From positions 1-48,895 of the forward strand of contig CANFLL010000024.1 of the NCBI GenBank assembly GCA_947447825.1: DNA of 48,895 bases, written 5' to 3'. Position 1 is the first letter of the stretch, and every line of letters starts with the position of its first letter. This document shows positions 6,881 through 45,254 of the stretch, in pieces. The DNA comes from Chitinophagaceae bacterium. GTDB taxonomy: Bacteria > Bacteroidota > Bacteroidia > Chitinophagales > Chitinophagaceae. The position numbers and the translations under genes are program-made. Under the pieces are notes generated by a model that saw only the letters and a program-made list of their open reading frames with translations, searched no databases and had not been told where the DNA came from.

Positions 6881-7069
6881 TTGCTTCTTGAAGTATAAGT
6901 TTCGCGTCTTGAAGTAACTTTATCGTGTCTTGAAGTAACTTTATTGCATCTCAAATAGTAAGTATCGTATCTCAAATAGTAAATTCTGCATCTTAAACCG
7001 TATTTATTGAGTGTAAAAGTGTAATTCATGCATCTTGAACCTCAATTTCGCTATCTGAAATAGTTTTAG
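6881..7069. repeat. 21-bp tandem array A (9 units)
   Basis: Nine consecutive 21-bp units in perfect register without a single indel, although the sequence drifts. The core is roughly GCATCTTGAAGTAACTTTA in the left units and GTATCTCAAATAGTAA in the middle. It begins about 50 nt after the stop of the GH35-like gene and lies about 150 nt upstream of the start at 6732. The rest of this 386-bp gap (6733-6880 and 7070-7118) shows nothing I recognise. The translated heptads on the minus strand are a by-product of the 3x7 period. Confidence 0.9.
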
Positions 7070-7118
7070 GGTTTTTGACGACTAAAATTTACTTTTAAAC
7101 GTAAATATTAACTTTACG

Positions 7119-8786
7119 CTACAAGTCATACACCATCGCCTTCATTTTAAAGATGGCAGGTGGCGTAGGCAATGCAGGGGAAATTGTAGGATTAGATTTC
7201 ACCCTGTAAACAGGCGTCTTCTTACTCCACAAAAAGCCCGCTTCATCCCCATTCATCAAAGCATTTCTTTTCCATTTTCCATTAATAAAACTCCCTTCCC
7301 AAACATCTCTCAACCAAACTTCTTTGTTAGGATTGGTCGATTTAGCACTGACATAAATGTTTTTTCCAGCCACTATACATTCACTATCGCTTGTTTGAAT
7401 AAAGATTCCATAGGTGGAAGGAAACTTTCCTTTCTCTAGTAAATCTTCATCTTTTCTTGGGTAGGGTCTAGTAAGATGAATATTAACCAACACCTCATTA
7501 TTCAACTTAATAGAACCACCAACAGTATCATTTTCATTTCTGTAAAATGCTTTTATCTTTCCAGAACCTTGGTATTGCAGGATTAATGGACTTAATTGAT
7601 TCAACATATCATACTCATCTTTCATAGAATCGGTTTGATTGTCTATCCCAAAAGGCGAAAAACATAAGGCATTATGGTTAGCAAAAGCATAGGTTGCCCT
7701 ACCTGCAATGGCTTTCGTTTCTGGAATTAACAAGGGATTATCTGTTCGATGAAAGAATCCCGCTTGAAGGTCAAAATCGTTTCCATAAATATCAGGCGCA
7801 ATAATATCAATGGCAGGGGCAGCCGCTTTCCAGATGTCTGCTACCATTATTATTGGCCCACCGCTCGGATAAGTGCCAGGTTTTGTGTAGTTAGGGCGAG
7901 GATTAGGACTCGGTGTGGCGGGCATCCAACAGTTTACATAGGTTGGTAAAGCATAAATCTTTTTGCCTTCAGCGGCAATCTTATTTACATAACTCCCATA
8001 CTGCCAAGCCATAAAGAACAGGTCGGTAAAATCATTTTTACCAAATATTTCAGCCCAATTTCCACTCGTTTTAGTGCCATTATCCTTCCAAGCGGTTTTA
8101 ATTTCTATTTCTAAAGAGGCCTCATTCTTTACTAAATATTGTATCAATTGCTGAGGAACTTCATTATTAAATGCTTCATTAGCTTGCGGACTAAAATCGC
8201 GAGTTTGCCCGAAAACACCCACTTCGTTTTCTACTTGCATAGCTATAACCGTGTTTTCTTTTGCATCCACTTTGGCTATATGTTTCATCACTTGGCAGTA
8301 AGCATTTTTATCAGCCTCCATTGTTGCGGTGCAAAAGGCAGAAAGTGTTTGGGTATTTTTACCCTCTGCATTCTTAACGCGTCCATACTTTTCTGTGTTC
8401 TCCATTAACCAAATTGGGGCATAAGGTGAGATACCATTCTTCCAAGTGGCGAGCCATAGAAACACAAGTTTTAAATTATTCCTGCGAGCAATAGTTATCA
8501 TTTGATCGATGCTGGAATAATTGAACTGATGCTCAACAGGCTCAATCAACTCCCAAGAAAGCGGAACAAAAACACTATTAAAGTTGGCCTCTTTTAGTGT
8601 TTTCATCGTTTTTTCCATGTAGGCACTATCCGATGCAGAAGAATTATATACTTCGCCGGCAAGCATCAAAAAAGGCTTACCCTTCACCACCATTTGAGTA
8701 ACCCCGTACTCGTTCTTTTTCAGACATGGAATTTGTGCGCTTAGTGTAACCGCAACGAGAAGTATTATGACTAAGCAAAATTTCAT
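7119..8786 (-). CDS. Secreted GH35-like beta-galactosidase (DUF5597-type)
   Basis: 555 aa. Signal peptide at 1-18 (…AVTLSAQ). The TIM barrel begins with KPFLMLAGEVYNSSASD, followed by NFNSVFVPLSWELIEP, typical of GH35/GH42 clan A enzymes. The acid/base Glu188 is in IAMQVENEVG and the probable nucleophile Glu356 in LLIPETKA. The C-terminal about 150 aa form a beta domain resembling DUF5597. Family members remove terminal beta-galactosyl (or related) residues from side chains. A hairpin terminator at 8824-8856 separates it from the GH2 gene upstream, so it probably has its own promoter in the 75-bp gap or depends on read-through. No sorting tail is visible, so it is probably periplasmic. The fold is secure; substrate is inference. 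Confidence 0.82.
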   Translation of the reverse strand: MKFCLVIILLVAVTLSAQIPCLKKNEYGVTQMVVKGKPFLMLAGEVYNSSASDSAYMEKTMKTLKEANFNSVFVPLSWELIEPVEHQFNYSSIDQMITIARRNNLKLVFLWLATWKNGISPYAPIWLMENTEKYGRVKNAEGKNTQTLSAFCTATMEADKNAYCQVMKHIAKVDAKENTVIAMQVENEVGVFGQTRDFSPQANEAFNNEVPQQLIQYLVKNEASLEIEIKTAWKDNGTKTSGNWAEIFGKNDFTDLFFMAWQYGSYVNKIAAEGKKIYALPTYVNCWMPATPSPNPRPNYTKPGTYPSGGPIIMVADIWKAAAPAIDIIAPDIYGNDFDLQAGFFHRTDNPLLIPETKAIAGRATYAFANHNALCFSPFGIDNQTDSMKDEYDMLNQLSPLILQYQGSGKIKAFYRNENDTVGGSIKLNNEVLVNIHLTRPYPRKDEDLLEKGKFPSTYGIFIQTSDSECIVAGKNIYVSAKSTNPNKEVWLRDVWEGSFINGKWKRNALMNGDEAGFLWSKKTPVYRVKSNPTISPALPTPPAIFKMKAMVYDL

Positions 8787-8823
8787 AATTAAATAATTGT
8801 CTTTTTTACCGTCCTGAAATTTA

Positions 8824-8856
8824 AAGGAAGGCTTCGCTTAAAGCGAAACCTTCCTT
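8824..8856 (-). terminator. Rho-independent terminator after the GH2 gene
   Basis: AAGGAAGGCTTCGCTT and AGCGAAACCTTCCTT form a near-perfect 15-bp stem with a 2-nt loop. Read on the minus strand it follows the GH2 stop by 6 nt and is followed by TTTAAATTTC. The plus-strand side has no T-run. Confidence 0.75.
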
Positions 8857-8861
8857 GTGCG

Positions 8862-11800
8862 TTAATTCCCAAAAAACTTCAATGCCTCTACTATGGTTGT
8901 CACCAACTTGGGTGTAAATGCCTTGAAGAAATCTGAGTTTATCAATGTCAAATCCTTTTTATCCTGGTTGATGTATTCGGGCGTCTTGTCCATCATGAAC
9001 CCGTACGTATCATTGACCAATACACTATTTGCCTCCATTATTTTCTTCACGCGTTGATTGAGTAGGTTTATTTTATCGTTATTCAAGTCACCAAACCAAG
9101 CAGTAGGTAATGGTGCCTGTGTGCCCCACATTAGTTTTGCGCCAGTATTCTTTAGAGTAGTAACAAGGGTTGCAATCTCGCTTTCAAAATTCTTTAAACC
9201 AGCTTCAGAGAAATCTGTAACGCCATCATAACCGATGGATAAATAGATGACATCATACTTAGTGCCGCCCAATGCACTCTCCACATTACTATTAAATGCC
9301 TTGGGATTATTGACTGAAACACCAGAATAGGATACATTGCCGAAGCCCGTTAGCTTTTTAATAATTTCTGGGGCAACTGCCAACATCCTACTATCCGTTA
9401 ATAATAAAATCTTACGTTGTTTACCATCCGAACTTCCCCCCATATCATACAATACCGAAGGCAGACTATCCAATGGTTTCAAACGAGCCAATTGTTGTTC
9501 CACCTTTGCCAATCTTAGTTTTTGGTCTGCTGCTGCGGTGAAATCAAATACATCTTTTTTATCAGGGAAATATGTAGTCCCTCCAACTGAACACTCCCAG
9601 TTGGTGAGAATATGATTGGCAATGGTCAATCCTTTTTCGCCACCATTTATCAAATCCAATTGGCAAAGCAAATACTCGCCCTTGCCTTGTTTTACAGTTG
9701 CCAACACAGGGTCACGGTTCAAGTACCACATTGCTTGGCGCATGTCTTTTCCTTCATTAATATATTCTGCACCAAAAGGAGGCACGCTCCAATCATTTCG
9801 CCAATTGCTTACCAATATTTTAAAACTATCATTAACCGAAACAGGTGAAATGCCTTTCATCTTAACCCCATAATCAAACATTGACTTACCATTCCAATTA
9901 AGGGTGATGTTTGATAAGCCAGACAAGAATGGATCATAGTTAGGTTCAAATGGTTGAGGAATAACTACACTATCATAATATTCCACACCTTTTTTTGGAG
10001 TGCTTCTTAAAGTCCAACTTGTAGCGGCTTTTACACAACCCGCCTTTTCATTTAAGAAAGGTTTAGTGATAGTTAAGCTATCCCCAATTAGCTTTTTGTA
10101 GCTGTCAATCGTTTTATCAGTAATCTGATAAACTAACACCTTTCCTCCATTTGCTTGAAAAGATTTGAGTGCTTTTACTTCTTCATCAGTTAATGAATGT
10201 GTTCTTGCATCTAAGAAAAGAACTTGAGCTTTTTGAAGACTGCTTAAATTTAAAGTCAGAATTGTTTCCGCTTTATTTTTAGCTTTATTAATTAAGTCTA
10301 CATAGTCAGACTCTCCATAAATAACTGTTGCATTTAGTTTAATGGAAGGCTTGTAATTTGCGGCAGCCTCAATCAGATTATGTAATAACCAACCTGCAAC
10401 TGGTTCTTTATCTATTGATTCAACAATTCTTAAACTTGTTACCCACCAACAACCATTGCCTTTGTATCCTTCTAATAAGGCACTTGATTTTCCATCTTTA
10501 TCTCCAGAAATAAGTTCTCTTGTATTTACATTGCCAATTGGCTTTTTTAAGCCTCCAAATTCATTACCCCCATTCCAAAAAGTAAGTTCTTGTTGTCCTA
10601 TTCCTTTCAATAATTTATAATTCGCACCGTTTACAAATAAGCGGGCAGAACTTTTTTGAATACCTTCTTTTTTAAACTGAACTAATGTGTGACTATCTGC
10701 AATAAACTGATTGGCATTTTTAGGAAGTTCATTTCCATTAACCAATATCATATCTACATCTCTAACTTTTTTTAAGTCACTAGGTAGTTTTATAAATGGC
10801 AACTTAACTTTAGTTAGTAGATTTATCAATCCCCCTTCTTCATCAATTACTCCAATCTTCTTTCCATTCATACCCAATAACGAGGCTGATAGTCTTGGAT
10901 AGATATGTCCTTCCCGAACATCTTTATAACCTGCTTTGCCTTGATACCAAAATTCGCGAACTATATGAATTGGAGTCGCTGTATTTACCGAAGGAATAGT
11001 AAAACTCCACTCTACATCCCTCAACATCGTTCCAGGTTGTAGGCTTTGTTTTTTGATGGTTTCGGATAATACCTTGCCTTCGGGAGTTTCTATCTTGCAA
11101 TGAATTTCATCTACAAAACGCAAATCATCATACTGCAACAAAGGGGTTTTGATAATGGTATTCTCTCCTCCAAAGAAAGAAAAATTCTTACTATCATACG
11201 GAAAACGCACCCATTTCATATCCTCGGCAAAGATGTAATAGCCCGGATTAGGTTCATAAACAGGTAAGGTAGAATCCCAGATATTTACCGGCGTGGCACA
11301 AGGTAAAACTTGTCTTGGTTTTACACCGGGGCCTTCCAACGTTTTATAAACAGGGGCAATGCCACGATAGCGATTGTAGGGCTGCCAACGGAAAAACACA
11401 CAACCAAAATCCCAAGGACTCACGGCATTTACACGATGCAAACTGCCATCAAATGTTTTGCCTTCTCTTATTAAATCGAAAGCATATTTTATCTCATTAT
11501 TTCCATCGCGGTAGATGCCTGTTGCATAATCTTGCGCAATTACTTCGTAGCCAGCAGTACCATTACCTAATGGACGATTGGGTTGCCACACTTCGCCACA
11601 TTCATCCCATATCATTGGTTTCTTAGGCCCAAATTGTTCCCACTCCGTAAAAACAGAATCGGTGTTATAGTGGTGACCAATAATATCACCGTGGGTAGAA
11701 AACGCACTAAAGTCGGAGGCTAAAGCAGGACGGGTCTTATCAATAGAATGTGCTTTATTAATCAACCAAGGCTTTTCGCCGCCACCTTGCCAACGCAATT

Positions 11801-13028: not shown

Positions 13029-13040
13029 AATTATAAAATT

Positions 13041-13080: not shown

Positions 13081-13144
13081 CTTTCAGTAGGAAAATCCGC
13101 TTTTCAATCAACGAACCATCATTTTTTTGTATAAGACCGCCAAA

Positions 13145-13354
13145 TACTTCATCAGGAAAACGAAAAATATCATCAAGTAATTCAATTACTTCATTAAGTA
13201 AATGGTAAACTTCATCAAAAAATCCGGTTACTTCATTAAGTAAATCAAAAAAGTAATCAAGAAATCCATTTACTTGATCAAGAAAATGAAAAAATTCATC
13301 AAGAAATTAAATTACTTGATGAATAAAATGAAAAAAGTCATCAAGAAAATGACC
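13145..13354. repeat. 21-bp tandem array B (10 units)
   Basis: Ten units of exactly 21 bp, no indels. Core TACTTCATCAAGAAAATG. Units 3 and 5 contain the dyad TTACTT-CATT-AAGTAA and unit 7 the palindrome CTTGATCAAG. The array ends 3 nt from the stop codon of the sialate-type esterase gene (13358) and lies 116 nt upstream of the GH2 start. Together with the solo arm it accounts for nearly all of the 329-bp gap. Confidence 0.92.
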
Positions 13355-13357
13355 TTT

Positions 13358-14881
13358 TTATTCTACATCAGTCTTAAAAGATGAAGCAGGCAAACCTTCT
13401 ACATTAAATAAATTACCCTTTGCCAGATTAGTAAATCCAAATCTAACTGCCACTGGCTTATCAATGGCTGGATTAGAAACGATTACTTTATTGCCCTTAA
13501 TAACAGCGGAAGCATCAACAAATTTTTTGTCATCTCCTGCGATAGTAAAGCCAATAAGATCGCCATCTTTTGATAGTAAACCCTTTCCTGTATGATCAAA
13601 ACTTAACTCTATTGTATTTCCTTTTATTTCAAATGATTTATACAAAGGACCCGAATATTCTATCTTTTCATTGTAGGCTAAAGCTCTCGCGGCAGTAAAT
13701 AAACGGTTACCAACTGGTTGTTTAAAGGTGGGATGAATATCGGCACTATCTCCACAGTCAGTTGTAACAGCCATCGCCACATTTGAAACTTTCTTCAAAG
13801 TTAGGAATTGAGCCTCCCTAATCATGGGATCAGCACCCCTGAAAGGGGCAATTTGCACATAGAGAAACGGAAAATCACCTTGATTCCAACGGCTTCTCCA
13901 ATCAGTAATCATTATAGGAAACAGCGTCTGGTATTGTTTTCCACGACCACCATTGCTCTCCCCTTGATACCAGATAACACCTTTGATTGCATAAGGAATC
14001 AATGGATTTATCATTGCATTATACAACCCTCCTGCACCACCTATTGGATTGCGAGGAGGAGCAGGTTTAGGCGGGAAAGGCTTTTTTGCAGCTAAAGCCG
14101 CAAGGGTGTCTGCAGCATATTTAAGCATCAAAGAAGGTAAATCGCTTTTATATTTAGCCAAAGCATCAGGATAAGCTAATCTGGCTTTATCATATTGTTC
14201 GACCAGCACTTTTAGTTCTGGGTTAGCTTCTAGTGCAGCCTTAGCTGTCCAGTTTTCAGCAGGTGTACCACCAACAGACGAAAACAATAAACCAACAGGC
14301 ACTTGGTATTTTTTATATAATTCCCGAGCAAAGAAGAAACCAACAGCACTAAAATCTTTTACTGCTGAAGTATCACAAACCACCCATTTGGATTTGGCGT
14401 CAGCAAACGTTGTATCTGCTAAATTGGTTTTTATAAAATAATTGCGGGGTACAGAGAATTGGCGAATTTCGGGATAATTAGCACTAGCAGCTTCTTCTTT
14501 CCAGTTTACAATAGGTTTTTGTCCGCTTCGTAAACCAAGCTGTCGCTCCATGTTGCTTTGTCCGCTACAAACCCAAACTTCACCAACCAAAATATTTTGA
14601 ATCGTGACATTGTTTTGTCCGCTGATAATCATTTTATATGGACCACCGGCTTTTAAAGGTTTCAATTTAAGCATCCACTTACCTTCTTTAGCTACAGTGG
14701 ATTCAGTTTGCCCATTAAATTCAACCGTCACTTTTTCACCATCCTCGGCTGTACCCCAAACAGGAACCGTAACACCTCGCTGTAACACCATATTGTCGGA
14801 GAATAAACTGTTGGGCTTCACAACAGCAAAACTTTTGGCAAACATCATCACAAGAAAACTAAATACAAGACTTTTTTTCAT
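13358..14881 (-). CDS. Secreted sialate-O-acetylesterase-type esterase (SGNH)
   Basis: 507 aa. Signal peptide about 1-20. An N-terminal beta domain carries the family signature KPNSLFSDNMVLQRGVTVPVWG (22-43). The SGNH/SASA catalytic domain has nucleophile Ser109 in CSGQSNM, the block WYQGESNG at 304-311, and the Asp381/His383 pair in DSADIHP. A small C-terminal beta domain follows. Despite the name, such proteins in glycan loci act on O-acetyl groups of various polysaccharides, and here plant polysaccharide de-acetylation is likely. It has a close paralogue at 37162-38688 of the same length with all catalytic motifs conserved. It is the first gene of the left minus-strand cluster, with a 728-bp divergent gap upstream. 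Confidence 0.87.
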   Translation of the reverse strand: MKKSLVFSFLVMMFAKSFAVVKPNSLFSDNMVLQRGVTVPVWGTAEDGEKVTVEFNGQTESTVAKEGKWMLKLKPLKAGGPYKMIISGQNNVTIQNILVGEVWVCSGQSNMERQLGLRSGQKPIVNWKEEAASANYPEIRQFSVPRNYFIKTNLADTTFADAKSKWVVCDTSAVKDFSAVGFFFARELYKKYQVPVGLLFSSVGGTPAENWTAKAALEANPELKVLVEQYDKARLAYPDALAKYKSDLPSLMLKYAADTLAALAAKKPFPPKPAPPRNPIGGAGGLYNAMINPLIPYAIKGVIWYQGESNGGRGKQYQTLFPIMITDWRSRWNQGDFPFLYVQIAPFRGADPMIREAQFLTLKKVSNVAMAVTTDCGDSADIHPTFKQPVGNRLFTAARALAYNEKIEYSGPLYKSFEIKGNTIELSFDHTGKGLLSKDGDLIGFTIAGDDKKFVDASAVIKGNKVIVSNPAIDKPVAVRFGFTNLAKGNLFNVEGLPASSFKTDVE

Positions 14882-15262: not shown

Positions 15263-15409
15263 GACTCAGCCGTGAAAATGATTTACCCAACTGAGGGAAT
15301 GATTAATCCAACTGAGGGAATGACTGACCCAGCTGAGGGAATGATTTACTCAGCTGAGGGAATGACTGACTCAACTGAGGGAATGATTGACTCAACTGAG
15401 GGAATGGTG
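15263..15409. repeat. 21-bp tandem array C (7 units)
   Basis: Seven 21-bp units, the last six nearly identical. Core CAACTGAGGGAATGATT, or CAGCTGAGGGAATGATT in units 3-4. Each unit has CTC-N4-GAG or a near version; CTCAGCTGAG is a perfect palindrome. This is the only array in a divergent gap. It lies 200 bp upstream of the beta-helix gene start and about 380 bp upstream of the minus-strand esterase start. The 15410-15609 remainder is open in frame with the beta-helix gene but does not look coding. Confidence 0.92.
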
Positions 15410-28169: not shown

Positions 28170-28570
28170 ATGGTTTTAATTACTTTTGAAGGAGAATAAC
28201 ATTGTCTCCAAAATAATAATTCCCCCTTCCCAATATTTCTTTTTCCGCCCTTGTTAGTGTTACCCATTCGCCGTTGTTGTGTCTTTTGACCAACAACAAA
28301 TGAATAGGAAGCTTTAATTATTTCAATTATCAGGGCTTATGCTTTTTATAGTTTTTAGTCAAGAATACCAAACAACAGTAAGCAGTACAGTCAGTTTCCT
28401 CTTCAATCAAATAAATCACTTTGTTGTTCATAAATATCCACCCTATTCCACAACCAATCATCCCCTTCCAAAAATAAATCCTCCATTAATTTATCCAAAT
28501 TCAAGTCTCCCTTTTTTTTGCGGCATTCATTTTACTATAAATTATGCGTGCCAACTTTTCCAAACACCCC
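28170..28570. other. Gene-free region upstream of array D
   Basis: AT-rich, no credible reading frame, RNA or terminator. Contains runs such as CTTTTTTTTG and gives way to array D at 28571. Confidence 0.4.
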
Positions 28571-28890
28571 TAATTTGTACCAATTCATGTATATCTTTTT
28601 TCGGGGACACCCTAATTTGTGGCAATATATGAGTCCATCATTTCGGAGGGGCATTAAAGTGTACAAATTAATGTGTCTTTTTTTTCTGGGACTGACTAAT
28701 TTGCGCAAATTAGTGCACCCCAGTTTTTATGGAGACTATAATTTGTGTCAATTAACGTGTCCCCGAATTGGCTAGCCTCTCATTTGCACCAATTAACGTG
28801 TCCCAGTTTTTATGGTGCCTATAATTTGTACAAATTAAGGTGTCCCCAATTTTGGGGACTGACAAATTTGTACAAAATTGGGTATGTCCA
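28571..28890. repeat. 42-bp tandem array D (8 units, 2x21 period)
   Basis: The anchor TAATTTG (or variant) occurs at 28571, 28613, 28655, 28697, 28739, 28780, 28822 and 28864: steps of 42 bp with one of 41. Its best form is the 16-bp palindrome TAATTTGTACAAATTA, or TAATTTGCGCAAATTA. Half-way through the period lies a second motif, GTGTCCCC/AGTTTTTATGG, which also forms dyads (TCCCCAATTTTGGGGA). So there is one dyad about every 21 bp. The array lies in the 1420-bp gap between the His-rich gene and the heparinase-like gene. Confidence 0.88.
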
Positions 28891-28940
28891 AAACTTAGAG
28901 AGGAAGAATGGTATTGATTTTATTTTCTCCATAATCTCGC

Positions 28941-29020
28941 CGTCATTGCTAGGCACAATGCCGCAATCTTTAAAATAATGGAATTATGAAAAAGGTTGCT
29001 TCGTGCCTAGCAATGACGTG
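28941..29020. repeat. Palindromic element of the CGTCATTGC…GCACGAAGCAAT type
   Basis: Left arm CGTCATTGCTAGGCACAATG continues into CCGCAATCTT. Right arm AAGGTTGCTTCGTGCCTAGC continues into AATGACG. The arms pair over about 28 nt around a 21-nt loop. I recall very similar sequences as dispersed palindromes in many bacterial genomes. Confidence 0.7.
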
Positions 29021-29080
29021 GACTATTTACGGTTAGATATCTCCTTTCGTTACAATGACGTGGGTTTATACGTCCCTGAT

Positions 29081-29170
29081 TTGCCAACTTTTCAGAAGTT
29101 GGTAAATCTAAATATGGCAAGTCTCTGTCCGTTAGATTTGGCAACTTCCAAAAGTTACCAAATCATAGCC
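29081..29170. repeat. Twin inverted repeats (ATTTGGCAACTT…AAGTTGCCAAAT type)
   Basis: Two adjacent imperfect palindromes: GATTTGCCAACTTTTCAGAA leading into GTTGGTAAATC, then GATTTGGCAACTTCCAAAAG leading into TTACCAAATC. They are framed by further short inverted strings (ACAATGACGTGGG at about 29052 and CCCCACACGTCATT at about 29169), so the whole block is nested. Confidence 0.65.
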
Positions 29171-29339
29171 CCACACGTCATTCCCATTTTTTTCTGGTGT
29201 GCCAGATAATACATTCGCAATGACGGGTAGAATATGAAGAAGATTAAAGCGATTTCCAATTACAAACTGGTTCGACTAGTAGGAACAAGTGACCAGCTAT
29301 CGCTGAACATTTGCTCCAATGGAACCTACTAGCTTTATC

Positions 29340-29470
29340 TACAATCGATACCGATTGGTGTATATCCTTGCAAGTTTTACTCCCATCGAAACCGATTGGA
29401 GTATATTCTTGCAAGTTTTGCTCCCATCGACACCGATTGCTGAAAACCTAGCAAGTTTTGCTCTCAACGA
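29340..29470. repeat. About 41-bp tandem array E (3-4 units)
   Basis: The anchor ACCGATTG occurs at 29350, 29391 and 29432 (41-bp steps) and GCAAGTTTT at 29370, 29411 and 29451. A decayed fourth unit follows. Each unit holds the dyad ATCG-N4-CGAT (centres ATAC, AAAC, ACAC). The period is about twice 21. It lies about 100 nt past the stop of the heparinase-like gene. Confidence 0.85.
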
Positions 29471-29565
29471 AAAACTTCCTAAAACGCTGAGACATAACAT
29501 AAGCCTAGATAGTTAAAGGTTATGGTATCTGTGTTGAAATATGAATATTATTTATGATTTTTCGC

Positions 29566-36873: not shown

Positions 36874-37062
36874 TTTTGTCGCATTCGAGGTAAGTTTTAC
36901 CGCATCCGAGGCATGTTTTGTCGTATCCGAGGTATCTTTTGTCGCATCCGAGACATGTTTTATCGCATCCGAGGTATCTTTTACCACATCCGAGGTATCT
37001 TTTATCGCATCCGAGGTATGTTTTATCGCATCCGAGACATGTTTTGTCGAATCCGAGGTATC
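36874..37062. repeat. 21-bp tandem array F (9 units)
   Basis: Nine exact 21-bp units, no indels. Core TTTTATCGCATCCGAGGTAT, alternating with a GAGACATG variant. Each unit has the dyad TCG-N4-CGA around CATC/TATC/CATT. It begins 55 nt upstream of the GH43 start at 36819. The open frame through it gives a 7-residue repeat (YRIRGIF-like), which I regard as a by-product. Confidence 0.93.
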
Positions 37063-37102
37063 GGAAATGAGACTGTAACCCTCATAATTCTATAAACCTA
37101 TT

Positions 37103-37165
37103 GACTTACAACTTTCGACTTTCAACTCTTGACTTTCAACTCTTGACTTTCGACTTACCACTTAT
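37103..37165. repeat. 7-bp tandem repeat array (9 units)
   Basis: Heptads GACTTAC, AACTTTC, GACTTTC, AACTCTT, GACTTTC, AACTCTT, GACTTTC, GACTTAC, CACTTAT in perfect register. The last unit overlaps the TAA stop of the sialate-type esterase gene (37164-37162). It lies 40 bp from array F. Confidence 0.85.
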
Positions 37166-38688
37166 TTCGCCACATCCGTTCTAAACGGACTCGCTGGTAA
37201 GCCTTCTTCATTGTACAAATTAACTTGAGGACAAAGTCTCCAACCCAATCTTACCGCTTCTGGCTTGTCGATGCCTTCAGCAGAAACAATTACTTTATTA
37301 CCCTTAATTACAGCCTTTGCAGGAACAAATTTCTTGTCGGAACCCGCAATTATAAAGTCTTTCAAGTCGCCATCTTTAGCTACCAAACCTTTGCCAGTAT
37401 GCGTAAAACTTAGCTCGATAGTATTACCCATCACTTTCATTGATTGATAAATGGGCCCCATAAATTCTATCTTTTCTTTATAAACCAAACCTCTTGCCGC
37501 CAAAGCCAAACGCTCGCCCACAGGTTGTTTATTGCCCGGATGAACATCTAAAGTATCATCGGCATCATTAATTACCGTCATGGTAGTGTTTGGCAAATGC
37601 TGATAAGTAAGCAATTGTGCTTCCCTCAATTCTGGTGTATGGGCTTTCCAACCAGGAATTTGAACAATCATAAAAGGGAAATCTCCAATGCTCCAAAGGC
37701 TTCTCCAATTGTTGATTAGGGTTGGCAACAAGGTGCGGTATTGCATACCCTGACCACCATTTGCTTCTCCCTGATACCACACCGCCCCCTTGATGGCATA
37801 AGGTGCCAACGGCAAAATCATGGTATTGTACAAACCACTAGGCCCACCTCTTTCGGCAGGAGTAATTGGCGCAGCAGGTTTGCGAGGAATTTCCTTGTGT
37901 GCTTCGGCTGCCTTAGCAGAATCGGCACTGTATTTTGCCATAATTTTAGCAATATCTTCATTGTGCTTTGCCAACTTACTCGGGAAATCAGCTAGTGCTT
38001 TATAATAATTTTCTAAGATTGGTTTAAGTAGAGGATTGGATTCTAAAGAATCTTTGCTGATCCAGTTTTGGGCAGCCGTTCCGCCATAAGAAGAATTGAT
38101 GATGCCAATAGGAATCTTGATTTTCTTTTGTAATTCTCTTGCAAATAAATAAGCCACCGCAGAGAAATCTTTAACGGTATTAGAATCGCAGACAAACCAT
38201 TTACCACCCGCATCTGTAACTGCCGCAGGAATATCTTCGCTCTTTTTTAAAGGAACTTTATACTGATGAATCATGGAATAATTAGCAGCATCGGTAATAA
38301 TTTCACTCACTTTTGGATAGTTGCCAATAGACCTGATAGACCTAACAGGAAACCCCATATTGCTTTGACCGCTACACAAAAACACATCGCCCACCAAGAT
38401 ATTCTTAATGGAAACCTTGTTGTTACCAGAAATAGTCATGGTAAAAGGACCACCTTCTTTTAGTGGGTTCAGTTTAGCCATCCACTTACCATTGCTTGCG
38501 GTAGCCGTAACTTTTTGTCCTTCAAACTCAACGGTTACCCTTTCTCCATCGCTGGCAGTACCCCAAACTGGCACTGCAACGCCACGCTGCAAAATCATAT
38601 TATCCGTGAAAAGACTATTAGGCTTCACGTTGGCAAAAACATGGTTGCCCGAAATAAGCACAACAACTGCGATTAGTATCTTTTTCAT
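37162..38688 (-). CDS. Secreted sialate-O-acetylesterase-type esterase, paralogue 2
   Basis: 508 aa. Signal peptide ends VFAN (about 20). Same architecture as 13358-14881: KPNSLFTDNMILQRGVAVPVWG, nucleophile Ser109 in CSGQSNM, WYQGEANG at about 305, and the Asp/His pair in DADDTLDVHP. The two differ only moderately throughout, so the duplication is not recent. The role is probably removal of O-acetyl groups at a different position or sugar. Gene order here is CE12, then this esterase, then GH43, consistent with de-acetylation before glycosidase action. Its stop codon lies within the 7-bp repeats. Confidence 0.87.
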   Translation of the reverse strand: MKKILIAVVVLISGNHVFANVKPNSLFTDNMILQRGVAVPVWGTASDGERVTVEFEGQKVTATASNGKWMAKLNPLKEGGPFTMTISGNNKVSIKNILVGDVFLCSGQSNMGFPVRSIRSIGNYPKVSEIITDAANYSMIHQYKVPLKKSEDIPAAVTDAGGKWFVCDSNTVKDFSAVAYLFARELQKKIKIPIGIINSSYGGTAAQNWISKDSLESNPLLKPILENYYKALADFPSKLAKHNEDIAKIMAKYSADSAKAAEAHKEIPRKPAAPITPAERGGPSGLYNTMILPLAPYAIKGAVWYQGEANGGQGMQYRTLLPTLINNWRSLWSIGDFPFMIVQIPGWKAHTPELREAQLLTYQHLPNTTMTVINDADDTLDVHPGNKQPVGERLALAARGLVYKEKIEFMGPIYQSMKVMGNTIELSFTHTGKGLVAKDGDLKDFIIAGSDKKFVPAKAVIKGNKVIVSAEGIDKPEAVRLGWRLCPQVNLYNEEGLPASPFRTDVAK

Positions 38689-38850: not shown

Positions 38851-38857
38851 ATTATTT

Positions 38858-39670
38858 TTATTTAAAAAAGTTTTTCAATTTACAATCCTTCAAGTTTTGG
38901 ATGCCTTTAGTTACCAAAGAAGCATTCAATGTAGCACCGGCAGTTGTAGTATGCACATGGTCTTTAACGGTGTGATACTTTTCAGTTACGGCAGCCTGAC
39001 CTTCGGCATCATATACATCTGCAATAAGGGTATTCAAATCAATAGATAATGCCTTTTCTTCTTTTGCCACCTGCAATGCCCAATCAGCAAAACCGAGTTC
39101 GCCTCTTAATAGTTTACCGTCTTTCCAATCGTTTTTAGGAATGGATGAACAAACAATAACCGTTACCCCCTTTGCTTTTGCCTGCCTAATAAACCGACGC
39201 ATATACCATCCAAAGCTGTGAACAGTTTCGTTTTGTTTGGTCACCACATTATAAATCTGCAAGCTATCTTCTCCAATTCCTTTCAATGTCCCTCTTGCCC
39301 TTGAAGAATCTGCCACTGGCCCTTGGTCATTCAATCCAAACTGAATAATTAAATAATCGCCTTTAGAAAGCCTAGCATAAACGGTATCCCACATACCCCG
39401 TTTGTTTATTTTCTTATCCCATATACCGCCCGTTTGAAAAGTTCTAGCACTTGTGCCGCCTTGTCCATAATTGCGGATGGCGACTTTAGACGTATCAAAA
39501 AAAGAAGGAAAGAACTTGCCCCAACCCCACAAGCCATTATTGCCAGAACCATCATCAACCGTGGAATCACCAATAAGCCAAACGGTGGGTTTCCTTTTTT
39601 CATTTTGTATGAAAGCCAATGCAGAAACTACTAAAAGCAAACAGAAGGTAATCTTGAAAGTATTTTTCAT
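38858..39670 (-). CDS. Rhamnogalacturonan acetylesterase (CE12, SGNH)
   Basis: 270 aa, typical CE12 length. Signal peptide about 1-20. SGNH blocks in order: GDSTV with Ser36, NYGQGGTSARTF at 68-78 (oxyanion Gly), FGLND with Asn114, and the catalytic DHVH with Asp237/His240 followed by TTTAGA. Relatives remove acetyl esters from rhamnogalacturonan I. This is the clearest pectin-specific signal in the window. The gene follows the unknown alpha/alpha-barrel gene by 62 bp and sits upstream of a second esterase. Confidence 0.9.
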   Translation of the reverse strand: MKNTFKITFCLLLVVSALAFIQNEKRKPTVWLIGDSTVDDGSGNNGLWGWGKFFPSFFDTSKVAIRNYGQGGTSARTFQTGGIWDKKINKRGMWDTVYARLSKGDYLIIQFGLNDQGPVADSSRARGTLKGIGEDSLQIYNVVTKQNETVHSFGWYMRRFIRQAKAKGVTVIVCSSIPKNDWKDGKLLRGELGFADWALQVAKEEKALSIDLNTLIADVYDAEGQAAVTEKYHTVKDHVHTTTAGATLNASLVTKGIQNLKDCKLKNFFK

Positions 39671-39732
39671 TATGTAACTTAATTTATATTAAACAACTAT
39701 AAACCTTCATAGGGTTCGAAACCCAATAAAGG

Positions 39733-42039
39733 TTACTTTTTAAACGTTAAGATGGTTGTCTCTCCCGATTTCAAACTTATTCTCTTTAGATCATGAACCT
39801 TATTTTCTCCCATCACCTGCTTTGCTGATGCACTCGTTTCTTCCATTATTGAAAGATTGGCATCTAAAGGCGTAGGATTAGTAATGGAGATAACCAATTC
39901 CGTTTTCGTATCTTTTATTGTTTTCGTAGTTACGTTATCAAAGGCAACTACCAATCCCTTGTCTTTCTGAATATATAATCCCGGCACTTCAATAGTGGTC
40001 AGCATAAGCGAAGTTTCTGCCCAAGTGGATAGCGGCAATACATACCCAATGCCTTCAACGCCTTCCCAATCCCCTAGGTTAATTCTTTCAGTTATATAGC
40101 CATAAGTTGCATTGCCCAATGGCTTCTTTGGATGCGGCAAATATTGGGTGATGTTATGGGCTATTTCCTGCAATAATTCAATATAAAATGGATTGCCCGT
40201 GTAGCGGAAAAGTTTTAATAACCCAACTCCAGAAGCAGTACACAATCCCGGCGACGCATGTTTATTTTGCGTATTTGCATACACCGTACCAACGGAATGG
40301 ATGCCTGCCTTGCCATAAGCGGAAGTATCTGGAAAATGATAATTGTACGATACCACCCATGTTGCCAATTGCTTTGCAGCATTTTCTGCAATAGGCAGCC
40401 ATTTACTATCGCCAGAAACTTCATAGATTGATACATAACTTTCTAACAAGCCAGCTATAGATTCAGAATCGAAGTTCTGCAAAGCATCTCCCGGACCACC
40501 ACAACTAATTCCTTTTTGGATGAAATTTATATTGTAATAATCACCTATAGCCTTTGCAGTTTCTAAGTACTTAGGATCGTGATAATATTGCGAAGCTAAA
40601 GCTAATGCGGCTGGCACAATACCTCCACTGCTAGACCCTCCCACCATAATATCACCAGTTTCGCTATTTACAAATTGCCCAATCTGATGGTATTTATCCC
40701 ATAATTTAACAAAGGCATCGCAGACTCTCTTATTTCCGTCGCTCCAAGATTGTTTTACAGGAATGCCCATTTTGTCCATCAGCATAAACTGCTTGGTAAT
40801 ATACCAAACTGCATCACCACTCTTACGGATGAGGTGCCAGTTTTTAGTCTGAGGTTTTCTTATGTCACCACCCAACCATTCTGTCCCATTTCTGCCAGCA
40901 TCATAATAGAAACCCGATGGACTAATTCCATTTGGAAAGAGCCAATCGAAATTGCGTAACACATTTTCCTGCGTTTGCTTATTACCTGCAAACAACAAAG
41001 GGTAAGTGCTAATCATGCCTCCCGTCCAACCAATTTGCCAGTCTTGCAAGAAATTTTCTCTAAAGCCAACTGAATAATATCCATGCTTGGTTTCAAAGTT
41101 CTTTTCATTAAACTTTTGTTCTAATACACCCATACAAGCCGAATAGGGCAATGCATTTGCCAACAGATTATCACCTGAAAAATCTTTTCTTATGGCTACA
41201 TATTTATCCAAGATGGCAGTTGTTTCGGGTGCTTTAAAGCTATACAGCCTAAACATGATGGTTACCTCATCACCAGCTTTAAAGTCTTTTGGTATGTCCC
41301 AGCTTGGGTAGTGCGCATCACATATTTTGTATAAATATTGTTCCCTTACAATGGGCGAAGTAATGGTTAATGTGGCTATATCCCTGTTTCTAGACTCCGC
41401 AATATCCATCCCATAATCACCCAAACTGTTACCCTGTTTGGTTAATAACCATATCCCTGTTTTTGAAGTATCGGATATAAAACCAATACTCGGCACTGCC
41501 ATATCCCCACTGCGTTCTTGTATTCTAGAAACTGCACCATTACTGTTTAGTTTTGGAATATCTGTCAAAATAATGGGCTTGTCTATGCCAATATCCTGCA
41601 CTTCATATAGCTTAGGAGAATAACGCAACCTTCTCCATTCATAACGATTACCATTGTAGGCAGCGGATGGAAGTAACACATAATTCTTCTCGCTCCATTT
41701 ATCAAAATCTATATCAACGGACACGCTTGCAGCTTCTACATGACCATTTGTACATTTAAAGGTAATGCTGTAATCTACTGCATCTTGTTTGCCAGCCACC
41801 CATCTTGCATCAGTACTTATCTCCCATTTTGATTGTAAGAAGACTTGCTGTTGATTTGCTTTTGCAAGACTGAATTTATTTTGATTAATCAATAAATTAT
41901 ATTGATCCTTGTTGTATTGGTTAATCCTTGCAGAGATATGTCCATTATTAGCCGTCAACCAATTGCTAATGGGCAACGAGATTTGCGCCATCAAGCATTG
42001 AGTAGAAAACATATAAAAAGCAAACAATAGTTTTTTCAT
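39733..42039 (-). CDS. Secreted alpha/alpha-barrel protein of unknown glycan activity
   Basis: 768 aa. Signal peptide ends LMAQ (19). The N-terminal about 290 aa are beta-rich (LLPSAAYNGNRYEWRRLRYSP, IGIDKPIILTDIPKLN). From about 300 a helical, aromatic-rich domain follows: GYYSVGFRENFLQDWQIGWTGG, WLFPNGISPSGFYYDAGRNG, HLIRKSGDAVWYITKQF, HASPGLCTASGVGLLKLFRYTGNP, GDWEGVEGIGYVLPLSTW. A small beta domain ends the protein. This layout fits a clan with (alpha/alpha)6-barrel hydrolases or lyases. I do not recognise the family; candidate acids are the Asp/Glu in RENFLQDWQ, YYDAGRNG and GDWEGVEG. Lies between the CE12 gene and the rhamnogalacturonyl-hydrolase-associated domain gene, with gaps of 62-63 bp. 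Confidence 0.75.
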   Translation of the reverse strand: MKKLLFAFYMFSTQCLMAQISLPISNWLTANNGHISARINQYNKDQYNLLINQNKFSLAKANQQQVFLQSKWEISTDARWVAGKQDAVDYSITFKCTNGHVEAASVSVDIDFDKWSEKNYVLLPSAAYNGNRYEWRRLRYSPKLYEVQDIGIDKPIILTDIPKLNSNGAVSRIQERSGDMAVPSIGFISDTSKTGIWLLTKQGNSLGDYGMDIAESRNRDIATLTITSPIVREQYLYKICDAHYPSWDIPKDFKAGDEVTIMFRLYSFKAPETTAILDKYVAIRKDFSGDNLLANALPYSACMGVLEQKFNEKNFETKHGYYSVGFRENFLQDWQIGWTGGMISTYPLLFAGNKQTQENVLRNFDWLFPNGISPSGFYYDAGRNGTEWLGGDIRKPQTKNWHLIRKSGDAVWYITKQFMLMDKMGIPVKQSWSDGNKRVCDAFVKLWDKYHQIGQFVNSETGDIMVGGSSSGGIVPAALALASQYYHDPKYLETAKAIGDYYNINFIQKGISCGGPGDALQNFDSESIAGLLESYVSIYEVSGDSKWLPIAENAAKQLATWVVSYNYHFPDTSAYGKAGIHSVGTVYANTQNKHASPGLCTASGVGLLKLFRYTGNPFYIELLQEIAHNITQYLPHPKKPLGNATYGYITERINLGDWEGVEGIGYVLPLSTWAETSLMLTTIEVPGLYIQKDKGLVVAFDNVTTKTIKDTKTELVISITNPTPLDANLSIMEETSASAKQVMGENKVHDLKRISLKSGETTILTFKK

Positions 42040-42102
42040 AATTAAATCTATAACCTGTAGAACCGAATTATTGCAAAGGCTTTACGTTAATGACAAGCAG
42101 TT

Positions 42103-42897
42103 TTATTTACTTTCTTTAAATAACCATTTTGTAAAATCGTCGGCGGCTTTAGTATTGTCCCAGCCATTCTTGTAGCCTAATCTACCATTTAGGTATTCAT
42201 TATAAAACCAAGGATCACCTATTACTACTACCATTCCCTTACCTACTTTAGCAGATGCCCCCACTGTATATTTCTCTGTTTGGTGAACTAAAATTGGCTT
42301 GGCAGTTTTAGATAAACTTAATGAGCTAACCTCTTTTAAATATACTTTCTTGGCAGTAGTGAATATGGGATCGTTTTGAGGGATAAAAAATGCTGCCATT
42401 TCGTATTTATCATTATACACTTTGCTTTTGCTATCCCCGTTTAGATGAATGCCAAAGGTTTCCGTAAGGTGATTCAAATGTTCAAACTCAACGTTTAATG
42501 AATCGTTTGCCATCACTACCAAAACACCACCTTTCTTCACCCAATCGGCAATTGCTTTAATGTGTTCTGCTTTTATATAATTCGGGTTTTCAGTTTCTTT
42601 ATATGTATCAGGATCTACCATTAAATAAACTGAAGTTCCTTTTAGATTGTATTTAGTTGGCGCGACCTCTAATGTTTTCAGTGCAAAACCATTCTGTGTA
42701 AAAACTGCCCCTAACTTACTGTAGCCACTTTGCGCGGTGTCTTCCCACATATAATGGAAACGCTCCAATTCGCCCTTACTATTCTTTCTGAATTCATGGT
42801 TGAAGAAGTAATCGAGGGTTACAGTTTTTGTTTGACTGTAAGTTGCGCCACCAATAAACAATGATAGTACTACGGCAATAAAATTTGTCTTTTTCAT
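42103..42897 (-). CDS. Secreted DUF4350-like domain, stand-alone form
   Basis: 264 aa. Signal peptide ends ATYSQ (21). The mature protein aligns from memory with the extra domain found attached to GH88/GH105 unsaturated rhamnogalacturonyl hydrolases in Bacteroidota: TVTLDYFFNHEFRK, RFHYMWEDTAQSGYSKLG, VYLMVDPDTYKETENPNYI, IADWVKKGGVLVVMANDS, GKGMVVVIGDPWFYNEYLNGR. The fold is class-I-amidotransferase-like (ThuA/DUF4350). Here it is encoded alone, with no hydrolase domain in frame. It may bind the same unsaturated oligosaccharide or partner with a hydrolase encoded elsewhere. Role unproven. Confidence 0.78.
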   Translation of the reverse strand: MKKTNFIAVVLSLFIGGATYSQTKTVTLDYFFNHEFRKNSKGELERFHYMWEDTAQSGYSKLGAVFTQNGFALKTLEVAPTKYNLKGTSVYLMVDPDTYKETENPNYIKAEHIKAIADWVKKGGVLVVMANDSLNVEFEHLNHLTETFGIHLNGDSKSKVYNDKYEMAAFFIPQNDPIFTTAKKVYLKEVSSLSLSKTAKPILVHQTEKYTVGASAKVGKGMVVVIGDPWFYNEYLNGRLGYKNGWDNTKAADDFTKWLFKESK

Positions 42898-42946
42898 ATT
42901 TGAGTTATAGTTATTTAATTAATCATTCAGTTTCAACAGAAGAGTT

Positions 42947-43076
42947 TAACCACAAAGAATACAAAGTTAAAGCACAAAGCACACGATGGTAAAATGTCCA
43001 TTTTAGTAATTCTTCACAAATAATACCACTCAATCTTAGTATTGTTTATGTTTTACTTTGAGTAATTAGTGGTAAA
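42947..43076. repeat. Long inverted-repeat intergenic element, copy 5
   Basis: Left arm TTAACCACAAAGAATACAAA, right arm TTTACTTTGAGTAATTAGTG then GTAAAA. More diverged than copies 3 and 4, but same size and same placement: 50 nt from one start codon, 44 nt from the next stop. Confidence 0.7.
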
Positions 43077-43119
43077 AACATACTCATTAGTGTGTTATTT
43101 TATCCCCCTGTTCCGCTTA

Positions 43120-44733
43120 TTAATACTTACCCAATGGTTCATATTTAAACCAATCGAAGAATGCATTAGTAGTAGATTTCTGCCCATTACCAGTGGCATA
43201 CAACCCTAATATCACCCCGTTATATCCACCCGAAACTTCTGTTCCCAGAAACCTTGTATTTATTTTCCCGACTTCCACCATTGCTCCATTGGCCTGTTTG
43301 TAAAAGAAGGTATATATCTTTTTATCACCTTTCACCATCAGTTCCACATCACCATTTGTAAGAGGTATCTGCTTCATTACCTGATTCAGGGAATCTAAAG
43401 TGTAGCGAAGGTTTAATTGCCTTTTGCCCTCTTTCGTGTTAATATAAAAATCGTAATGAAAACGGTTGTCCATCATCATCGTGATTCCTGCTTCTTCATT
43501 TGCTTTGTTTGGGTTGAAATCAATTTTAGTAGAAGCTGCAAAATCAAAATGCTGCTGCCTTCTTGCTATCATTGTTGGCGATTCCCAATCGTACAAACTA
43601 TATTCAGAACCTTTAAGGCACAGATAACCTTTGCGATCTGTCAATGAATAGTTGGCTGAATCTGGATTACGAAGATGCAACCATTCAAAACTCAATGGTT
43701 TATCAAACTCAGTAAGTACGGTTGCATTAAAAGGTTGAGGTGTTTCTGTTTGATAATTAGGCGGATTTTTCTTAATAATAATGTCTGATTGCCCATTTCC
43801 ATTAACCGTAGGCCATTCATCTGAAGGCCATTCTACGGGGGTTAGGCAAGTTTCTCTACCAATAAAATGTATGCCATCTACAGCGGGTCTGAAACCAAGA
43901 TGCACCATCCACCAACTACCATCGGTAGCCTGTATCATATCTGCATGGCCAGTGCCTTGTAGCTGACTATATGCCATTCTATTAGTCAATATCGGGTTGT
44001 GCGGACAACTCTCATAAGGTCCCCAAATGTTCTTACTTCTAGCGATAGCCACCGAGTGTCCGTAAGCCGTACCGCCCTCTGCTGTCTGCAAATAGTAGTA
44101 GTTATCTTTTTTGTACATGTGAGGGCTTTCTACATAGCTGCCCCCACTACCCTTCCATAGTTCTTTTATATCGCTAAGTCTTTTGCCTGTTTTTATATCA
44201 ATTTCCGATTGATAGATAGCACGTGGGTCACTAGATTTTGTTGCACGGTTTGATATAAAATACATTTTCCCATCTTCATCCCAAAACAATGAAGGGTCTA
44301 TGCCGCTTTGGTTTACATAAATAGGTTCGCTCCAAGGTCCTGCGGGGTTTGTAGCAGTAACATAAAAGTTTCCATAACTCATATTGCCCGAAACAAGCGT
44401 AACCACCATATAAAAAACACCATCGTGATAGCGTATTGTTGGGGCATAAATACCATTGGAAGGTTTACAGTTTTTAAGTGGCAACTGCGATGCCCTGTCC
44501 AGCACATTACCTATCTGATGCCAATGTACCATATCGGTACTATGCCAAACAGGGACGCCAGGAAAATATTCGAAACTGCTATTTACAAGATAATAATCGT
44601 TGCCCACACGGCATATACTTGGATCGGGATAAAAGCCTGGTATAACAGGATTTTTGTAGCCTTGCGCCAAACAAGCGGTTATAGTAGAGGCAAACAGCAG
44701 ACAAGCAACGAAAAAATTTTTAGTGAACCTCAC
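43120..44733 (-). CDS. Secreted GH43 beta-xylosidase/alpha-L-arabinofuranosidase
   Basis: 537 aa. Signal peptide ends CLAQ (24). Canonical GH43 propeller: KNPVIPGFYPDPSICRVGND with base Asp37, SGIDPSLFWDEDGK with Asp146, YVESPHMYKKDNYYYL with acid Glu202. A C-terminal beta-sandwich (about 340-530, DUF1349/GH43_C2-like) has FEWLHLRNPDS and AGITMMMDNRFHYDF. This two-domain form is the common Bacteroidota xylosidase/arabinofuranosidase type. It is the first glycosidase of the right minus cluster, with a TAGATTTG box 32 nt before its start. Confidence 0.9.
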   Translation of the reverse strand: MRFTKNFFVACLLFASTITACLAQGYKNPVIPGFYPDPSICRVGNDYYLVNSSFEYFPGVPVWHSTDMVHWHQIGNVLDRASQLPLKNCKPSNGIYAPTIRYHDGVFYMVVTLVSGNMSYGNFYVTATNPAGPWSEPIYVNQSGIDPSLFWDEDGKMYFISNRATKSSDPRAIYQSEIDIKTGKRLSDIKELWKGSGGSYVESPHMYKKDNYYYLQTAEGGTAYGHSVAIARSKNIWGPYESCPHNPILTNRMAYSQLQGTGHADMIQATDGSWWMVHLGFRPAVDGIHFIGRETCLTPVEWPSDEWPTVNGNGQSDIIIKKNPPNYQTETPQPFNATVLTEFDKPLSFEWLHLRNPDSANYSLTDRKGYLCLKGSEYSLYDWESPTMIARRQQHFDFAASTKIDFNPNKANEEAGITMMMDNRFHYDFYINTKEGKRQLNLRYTLDSLNQVMKQIPLTNGDVELMVKGDKKIYTFFYKQANGAMVEVGKINTRFLGTEVSGGYNGVILGLYATGNGQKSTTNAFFDWFKYEPLGKY

Positions 44734-45149
44734 TGTAATAATTTACAAGTAATATAAAGAATAGCAAATCTAATGGTCAACATCAGTGTAGGCTTGTTTG
44801 GATGTGTACTATACTATACCAGATGGGGCAAAAGAAGTTGAAAAAAGTGCATGAGGCTGTTTCTGTAAGCAGTAAATTAGTATTTATAATAATGGCAATC
44901 AGCCTTTTTTAAGTAGTTTCAATTTTGTACCTATTGGATTGAGATCTTTTTAATCTTTAATTATATTTTTCAATTTACTTTACTGCTCCATTATTTTAAG
45001 AGCTATATATTAGCTTTAGTTGGTGTATTTCAAACTTTTTAAAACTAAAAACTTTGCCCTTCACCAAACAAAATTTAGTTAGCAATTTACCTTTCGGCGC
45101 AATTGCTTTAGGTAATAAAAACAAGCGCATAAAACTCGTTTTTTGTCAG
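44734..45149. other. Gene-free upstream region of the GH43 gene
   Basis: AT-rich leader/promoter region without a reading frame. Apart from the candidate -7 box at 44765, I see no terminator, RNA or repeat before array G begins. Confidence 0.4.
44765..44772 (-). promoter_or_regulatory. Candidate -7 box (TAnnTTTG) for the GH43 gene
   Basis: The minus strand reads TAGATTTG, 31 nt upstream of the start codon. No convincing -33 TTTG at the proper spacing, so moderate to low confidence. Confidence 0.35.
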
Positions 45150-45254
45150 ATGCTCTACGACACGAGTTAAACCCTCTACGTTATGAGTTAAATGCTCTAC
45201 GACAAGTACAATATCCTCTACGTTACGAGTTAAATGCTCTACGACAAGTATTAA
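45150..45254. repeat. 21-bp tandem array G (5 units)
   Basis: Five exact 21-bp units with core CTCTACGACACGAGTTAA or CTCTACGTTACGAGTTAA; a sixth (45255-45275) is decayed. The dyad arms CTC/GAG are separated by 8 nt here. Located in the 717-bp gap between the GH43 gene and the amidohydrolase-like gene. Confidence 0.88.

Follow-up and report, generated by a model that had tools for sequence, protein, structure and literature searches.

Intergenic tandem arrays of unlike sequence on a common 21-bp step, and their mutual avoidance, in Chitinophagaceae genomes

The contig CANFLL010000024.1 of a Chitinophagaceae bacterium (48.9 kb; here "the window", meaning the whole stretch) carries seven intergenic tandem arrays whose repeat units differ in sequence, and the question raised by this locus is why such arrays should all be laid out on one 21-bp step or its near multiples. 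The genome, referred to as G000 (4.65 Mb in 187 contigs), is fragmented and resembles a metagenome-assembled genome (MAG); its congener G004, used for comparison, is a MAG, and the contigs are partial. Among GTDB-220 contigs, a 328-aa PDH protein had its best named match, at 98%, in a Chitinophagaceae MAG. The arrays are hosted by one group of uncultured lake bacteria. We tentatively regard them, with somewhat less than even confidence, as one functional class of intergenic element of about 200 bp, that is, platforms for dimeric proteins that are kept apart from one another and may serve as chromosome-domain barriers.

The 21-bp step in the window and among relatives

All seven arrays proposed in a preliminary description of the window were recovered, in place or nearly so, by a lag scan and by Tandem Repeats Finder (TRF); none of them is assigned to a strand. 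Array A (6883..7041; both programs), which sits between two minus-strand genes, has a decayed 21-bp step with indels of 4% and 9% by TRF. Array B (13133..13352; both programs) is built on a 42-bp unit that divides into two 21-bp halves related to each other; at 42 bp TRF gave 5.0 copies with 78% matches vs 61% for a 21-bp unit. Array C (15264..15406) repeats the 21-bp unit AATGATTGACCCAACTGAGGG, and array D (about 28568..28891) has a 42/84-bp unit (lag 42/83-84) and a related array at the corresponding position of G004. Array E (29334..29472) contains 3.2 copies of a 41-bp unit, its limits joining the TRF call (29344-29472) to the lag-41 segment at 29334-29439 (score 47). Array F (36874..37062) has 9 copies of the 21-bp unit TTTTATCGCATCCGAGGTATG, from a family common to G004 and two further loci of the G000 sample, and array G (45150..45257) repeats the 21/42-bp unit ATGCTCTACGACAAGAGTTAA.

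Arrays A, B, C, F and G had been described as made of exact 21-bp units with no indels. A lag-21 segment was found in each of the five, with none in the window at lags 19, 20, 22 or 23, so the step itself was borne out; the exactness was not, since B fits 42 bp better, A has indels, and G can be read either as 42 bp with 6% indels or as 21 bp with none. The period of about 41 bp proposed for E was recovered as 41, while the 42 bp proposed for D came out as 42/83-84. The units do differ among the arrays, as had been noted: among 21 pairwise profile comparisons, C-F is the sole pair to reach p=0.02.

To obtain the period spectrum of the genome, the window and 60 stretches of 20 kb each, drawn from contigs C1-C20, were scanned for ungapped lag matches with a single threshold (1.249 Mb, 27% of 4.65 Mb). 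This sample is not random: it takes in the first 20 kb of C1-C20, additional stretches of C1-C14, and the window, and the contigs sampled are the large ones. The lag specificity expected from the window held, the fundamental lag being 21 in 59 arrays, 22 in one and 19, 20 or 23 in none. Other fundamental lags were 42 (19 arrays), 41 (7), 62 (4), 63 (3) and 7/14 (38), with 24 arrays at the remaining ones; altogether 155 periodic arrays of any period were detected, 92 of them at 21/41/42/62/63. The same scan of 0.836 Mb of G004 gave 36 arrays at lag 21, 20 at 42, 10 at 41, one at 63 and two at 22, and none at lags 19, 20 and 23. The number of 21-step arrays was therefore 92 per 1.249 Mb in G000 vs 67 per 0.836 Mb in G004, and the leading periods were the same by TRF at standard settings. 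In ordinary bacterial minisatellites (variable-number tandem repeats), unit length varies freely between loci, which is not so in the G000 arrays; whole-unit change of copy number, typical of such loci, is also seen here.

Small stretches of 11 genomes of the same genus were examined for the step. Arrays at 21/41/42/63 were present in G001, G002 (a single, weak 41-bp array), G003, G004, G007 and G010, and tandem GACTCA units at a 21 step in G006. No arrays were found in about 83 kb of G005, G008, G011 and G012, where about 6 were expected; these four have the lowest PDH identity (91-93%; 94% in G007). No array was seen in the stretches sampled from G013-G017, which represent five further genera of the family, and among 80 family loci totalling 1.39 Mb such intergenic arrays occurred at G004's own locus only. 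Other matches near the step among these loci were, in L207 (Chitinophaga), a 22-bp array and, in L133, a GC-rich stretch of low complexity at lag 21 that was taken for coding by eye. Because arrays are missing from the sampled other genera and from the congeners of lowest PDH identity, the trait looks confined, on small samples, to a single clade within one genus of the Chitinophagaceae.

Spacing, anatomy and register of the arrays

The arrays avoid one another in both species, which is a new observation. Against a null of random placement into intergenic gaps, the coefficient of variation (CV) of the intervals was 0.59 in G000 vs 0.90±0.10 (72 intervals; 0 of 400 shuffles as low) and 0.54 in G004 vs 0.87±0.09 (52 intervals; 0 of 500 shuffles as low). 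Intervals below 4 kb numbered 6/72 in G000 (18.9 expected) and 1/52 in G004 (14.7 expected), with a mean separation of about 11 kb. Heptamer arrays, with 19 intervals per genome, showed no avoidance (CV 1.16 and 1.11 vs nulls of 1.15 and 0.99), and array-free gaps of 300-900 bp were near their null (0.82 and 0.86 vs 0.93 and 0.96; p=0.07 and 0.14). When TCAnnTGA arrays were removed, in runs that omitted 600-bp merging, the avoidance stayed in G000 (CV 0.58) and was weaker in G004 (CV 0.75, p=0.08), where short intervals were 3 vs 14.2 expected.

Among 81 arrays at lags 21/42/63, the median length was 204 bp and 38 fell at 175-225 bp. They are intergenic elements: 68/81 lay between genes and the 13 others overlapped open reading frames (ORFs) of at least 100 aa that were judged spurious. 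The gene calling was crude, relying on a simple ORF rule, and ORFs below 250 aa over an array were discarded after these 13/81 had been marked as coding. The view that the arrays are not coding was upheld, and protein-coding repeats were ruled out, by the absence of codon-periodic variation (mean z -0.34; 2/59 arrays above 1.645), with a stop-free frame in 63/81 vs 55 expected. Placement is independent of gene orientation, as the tandem/divergent/convergent flanking genes (40/16/8 of 64 arrays) equal the background (330/122/70 of 522 gaps). The G+C content exceeds that of other intergenic DNA (0.388 vs 0.303 in G000; 0.378 vs 0.310 in G004).

Many array units are quasi-palindromes, and more than half of the arrays are dyad-symmetric: 77/134 at p<0.05 (50/95 at 21 bp and 27/39 at 42 bp), with 35/95 and 21/39 at p<0.01. 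In the null used for these counts, column conservation was kept and bases were drawn from real array-free intergenic DNA; it superseded an older 42-column permutation null that overstates the symmetry of 21-bp arrays. Taking one array per sequence cluster, 23/40 were dyad-symmetric at p<0.05. The half-sites, which lie some 1.5-5.5 bp away from the dyad, are conserved above the spacer and the centre (half-site vs spacer: p=5e-5 in 21-bp arrays and p=0.075 in 42-bp arrays), and conserved dyad half-sites over a spacer are likewise a feature of operator and iteron arrays. Within the window, the older null gave a clear dyad signal in B and C and a partial one in D, E being outside the test. Intrinsic curvature, or gyrase-like phasing of composition, was rejected: no 10.5-bp excess was found in GC, AA/TT/AT or AA/TT, therefore intrinsic bending is not the basis of the step. 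An AA/TT excess was seen at 5.25 bp (0.239 vs 0.188, se 0.013).

It had been proposed that the sequence drifts without drift of register. One part of this stands, since a single step holds genome-wide and indels per substitution are fewer than in other intergenic DNA. When 134 arrays were aligned to their tiled consensus, 135 indel events were counted against 5110 substitutions (0.026), compared with 165 against 1112 (0.148) in 38 array-free orthologous gaps; the resulting deficit in detected arrays, about 5.6-fold, is an upper bound, because a looser search adds indel-rich hits and detection favours indel-free arrays. Simulated arrays with neutral indels were recovered at 58% by the lag scan and at 99% by permissive TRF. 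At standard settings and periods of 20-22 or 41-43, TRF reported 0-1% indels in 58/71 arrays of G000 and 43/61 of G004. The case for a kept helical phasing is weakened by this detection bias, by the indel-rich additional hits and by small indels in 4/7 orthologous alignments.

G000 and G004 share 171 reciprocal best hits (median protein identity 90.6%), and beside orthologous genes 11 array pairs were found, of which 7 belong to the same family and 4 have unrelated units, one of these four being an AT-rich 62-bp array. A twelfth pair, C24:13133 / C2:75119, was left out as false, as the G004 array matches array C. Array C itself lies beside the same gene in G004, where it is 99% identical and two units (42 bp) longer, and in the six other same-family pairs the alignable portion has an identity of 94, 93, 92, 87, 71 and 68%. 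Among the seven pairs, 21-bp runs were gained or lost in two and a 42-bp run in one. The preliminary description had held that ordinary satellite slippage offers no explanation, which is not supported in that form: whole units are gained and lost, therefore slippage or unequal exchange acts within the step. At the PDH locus, an array lies upstream in both G000 and G004. The PDH E1-beta locus of G003 (L100; compared with L050 and L099) has no array; in its place stands a short inverted repeat (TTTTAGCCCCCT...AGGAGGCTAAAA) that shares the half-site of those arrays and is perhaps the seed or the remnant of one. In one syntenic block, the array at G004 C2:8045-8259 faces about 1.15 kb of other sequence at G000 C6:5211-6362. 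An association of arrays with G000-G004 synteny breakpoints was rejected. Gap length accounts for the apparent excess at the ends of synteny blocks: over 332 gene-side rows, the logit coefficient of arrays was 0.12, with a bootstrap interval from -0.54 to 0.73.

The sequence of the units is not simply free, as had been thought. The arrays fall into families, some of them common to species, and the half-sites are conserved. BLAST clustering of the 81 arrays gave groups of 13, 5, 5 and 4 and then smaller ones, and profile clustering gave 40 clusters among 78 arrays. The CTCGGATGCGACAAAAGA family, that of array F, had matches in G000 and G004 only among 59 genomes (at most 3 mismatches in a 37-mer), with more divergent kin in G001 and G010 by eye.

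Possible nature of the arrays

The two-turn step, the half-sites with scant RNA-type covariation, the independence of orientation, the avoidance and the replacement by unrelated units, taken together, suggest a nucleoprotein block in which geometry counts for more than letters. Each array would then be a row of some ten weak dyad sites, directly repeated at a distance of two helical turns, on which one or more dimeric DNA-binding proteins could be aligned along one face of the helix to form a long block. We infer that such protein is bound and that selection keeps the step and the half-sites, while no single sequence would be kept. Held about 11 kb apart and rarely closer than 4 kb, the blocks may act as chromosome-domain barriers (topological insulators), perhaps working like the bacterial interspersed mosaic elements (BIMEs). 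As the blocks are spaced with respect to each other, domain barriers fit better than gene-by-gene regulation, and a role in chromosome domains is the likeliest one. A further step, at which the element would be recognised by its step and internal self-similarity, unrelated arrays would be interchangeable, and the whole would form an approximately 11-kb grid of clade-specific supercoil or loop boundaries, is more doubtful and on balance unlikely.

Several observations weigh against such protein-bound barriers. No array-binding protein or ligand was found, and the counts of HU/IHF and Y1 transposases do not track the arrays. The window pairs B-C (2.1 kb) and D-E (0.7 kb) break the avoidance and are two of the six exceptions in G000. 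Significant dyad symmetry was missing in 57/134 arrays, and by the older permutation null arrays A, F and G of the window showed no dyad signal. Permissive TRF added 23 (G000) and 11 (G004) short, poorly matched period-21 hits, and 18 and 4 of these, respectively, have at least 7% indels; some of the additional hits are heptamer arrays, and others may be decayed arrays, coding repeats or chance. Between orthologous arrays, units were gained and lost and small indels were present in 4/7 pairs (40-bp flanks included). The identity of orthologous arrays was above that of their flanks in some pairs and below it in others, therefore a uniform sequence constraint is not shown.

The identity of the supercoil-diffusion barriers of bacterial chromosomes is presented as an open question in the relevant part of a review (PMC6907758). 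If the arrays are barriers, the clade would offer dense and predictable candidate sites, and its near relatives, apparently array-free, could serve as natural controls. In the opposite case, the novelty would lie in the process by which exact 21-bp steps are laid down on sequences unrelated to each other.

It is a serious possibility, although we do not consider it probable, that the arrays are neutral or selfish tandem repeats whose 21-bp step is built into a duplication or copying process peculiar to the clade. Recombination or transposition would then have dispersed the families, and interference during copying would have spaced them. Such a generator agrees with the dispersed families of 2-13 members in the sample, with the whole-unit gain and loss (42- and 21-bp runs), with arrays whose edges are decayed and whose inner units are alike by eye, and with the existence of decayed period-21 hits with indels. 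It also agrees with the amplification of one family in G000, which had 189 forward pattern hits vs 6 in G001, 3 in G006, 9 in G010 and 0 in G004 (reversed-pattern controls gave 0 hits). On the other hand, it does not predict avoidance across families or retention beside the same gene, and the shortage of indels, if real, requires either selection or a very exact process. Beyond one family and one single array, moreover, no terminal inverted repeats were clear of the null. We know of no enzyme that makes a 21-bp step on unrelated sequences. A RAYT/Y1 transposase or an expansion of HU was rejected as the maker, with 1-7 and 1-4 matches per genome, respectively, in 17 genomes and no tie to those bearing arrays.

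Arrays of operators, at which each family would bind its own transcription factor and regulate the adjacent gene, are unlikely. The dyad half-sites and the two-turn phasing are operator-like, and arrays persist beside the same gene: the orthologous gap had an array in 9/20 broken-adjacency rows with a G000 array vs 11/75 without (Fisher p=0.011), and in 6/21 vs 6/61 in the reverse direction (p=0.067), although the rows are not independent, many gaps are counted twice and one of the 20 rows is a false pair. However, no preference for the promoter side or for divergent genes was found, and the sampled 27% of the genome already has about 40 sequence groups. Unrelated units on the same gene side in 4/11 pairs, and neighbours that span housekeeping genes to glycoside hydrolases, likewise speak against operators.

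There is little to suggest that all the arrays are minisatellites carried by miniature inverted-repeat transposable elements (MITEs), as with BrickBuilt of Porphyromonas gingivalis, and we consider this very improbable. One family does have such a carrier: the GACTCAnnTGAGTC (GACTCA) family lies inside a MITE-like repeat of about 700 bp, with 15-bp terminal inverted repeats (AATTCTACTTTGACA / TGTCAAAGTAGAATT) and ends in TTAA. The element was found at the G000 loci L027, L033, L037 (C1:211593-212725), L038, L053, L058, L061, L063 and L067, L027 and L061 having mainly one of its flanks in common. The orthologous G004 gap of L037 is without it (184 vs 1131 bp), the exact junction being unresolved. 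A further 42-bp array, C7:31077-31289 (L054 11080-11289), is flanked by a 38-bp inverted repeat unlike the GACTCA element and may have a second mobile carrier. However, flanking inverted repeats with a score of at least 13 were found at just 6/91 arrays in G000 (1.5 expected), namely four of the GACTCA family, C7:31077 (score 26) and C9:30908 (score 14), and at 0/65 in G004 (0.7 expected). These counts point to an absence of element ends around most arrays, and in the other families the array alone is mostly what the members have in common.

Hairpin arrays acting in RNA, as terminators or transcript stabilisers, have hardly any chance and were mostly rejected: palindromic units are common and, in the 50 most symmetric of 79 arrays, same-unit pairing exceeds cross-unit pairing (0.691 vs 0.679, Wilcoxon p=0.036), but the excess is tiny, sense-strand G-T and A-C mismatches (113 vs 104) give no G-U bias, no orientation is preferred and no Rfam match was found in the window. 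With little covariation within units and no G-U bias, the symmetry is therefore that of double-stranded DNA rather than of an RNA hairpin.

Known systems and neighbouring features

The preliminary description knew of no family that fits, and likewise none was found by searches of an open-access library that targeted such arrays and neighbouring topics. The best comparisons are the BIMEs of Escherichia coli functionally and BrickBuilt structurally, and the arrays fall under the definition of neither.

BIMEs are built from one sequence family, the repetitive extragenic palindrome (REP), whereas the arrays have no common sequence but a tandem 21-bp step (40 unlike clusters for 78 arrays; no REP model was searched). 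In the part of the review that treats them, BIMEs are palindromic, intergenic and about 600 in number, they are proposed barriers, and one impedes supercoil diffusion (PMC6907758). On that account, the likeness lies in intergenic palindromic repeats that number in the hundreds per genome.

BrickBuilt, as outlined in the relevant sections of its description, consists of intergenic tandem 23-nt repeats in imperfect copies at 19 places of the P. gingivalis genome (PMC4596501). As far as these sections go, it shares with the arrays a host in the Bacteroidota, many intergenic loci and a unit with a conserved and a variable part, and the GACTCA family also sits in a MITE-like repeat. BrickBuilt has, however, one 23-nt unit, whereas the present arrays follow a 21-bp step in some 40 sequence groups within 1.25 Mb, mostly lack terminal inverted repeats and are mutually avoiding. 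Its terminal inverted repeats, accompanied there by a leader and a tail, have a counterpart in the GACTCA family and possibly in one more array.

Iterons, known from plasmid and phage origins, and operators in tandem arrays consist of dyad or direct repeats, spaced at about two helical turns, onto which proteins are loaded in alignment. Iterons mark origins, whereas the present arrays are many, chromosomal and of differing sequences. In work of Leng from 2011, supercoiled DNA was reportedly divided into two domains. A CRISPR array has conserved repeats, unique spacers and cas genes, while the step here is too short for spacers.

Heptamer tandem repeats, intergenic and of fixed period, are described in bacteria in the part of a study that concerns them (PMC6344855), and G000 also carries 7-bp arrays. 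These resemble the 21-step arrays in location and in the fixed period, but their period is 7 bp, they are widespread in the family (the 80 loci, 1.39 Mb in all, have 25 arrays at lag 7/14) and they are not mutually avoiding. In the window, a GACTTTC-type heptamer array lies at 37101-37156, and this separate family accounts for the 38 lag-7/14 arrays of the G000 sample.

Many genes near the window arrays encode carbohydrate-active or secreted proteins. A polysaccharide-degradation cluster extends over 325-44733, with GH95, three GH43, GH2 and GH35/42-like proteins, SASA esterases and proteins sorted by the type IX secretion system (T9SS). The two SASA esterase genes (13358-14881 and 37162-38688) have a common stretch at 70% identity. 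A short gene cluster at 46730-48334 includes two PIN-domain proteins and possibly represents toxin-antitoxin modules. Between arrays D and E, at about 28940-29225, an inverted repeat based on CCTAGCAATGACG is followed by a dispersed repeat (about 29012-29225) with 95.8% identity over 215 bp to L022 6893-7107.

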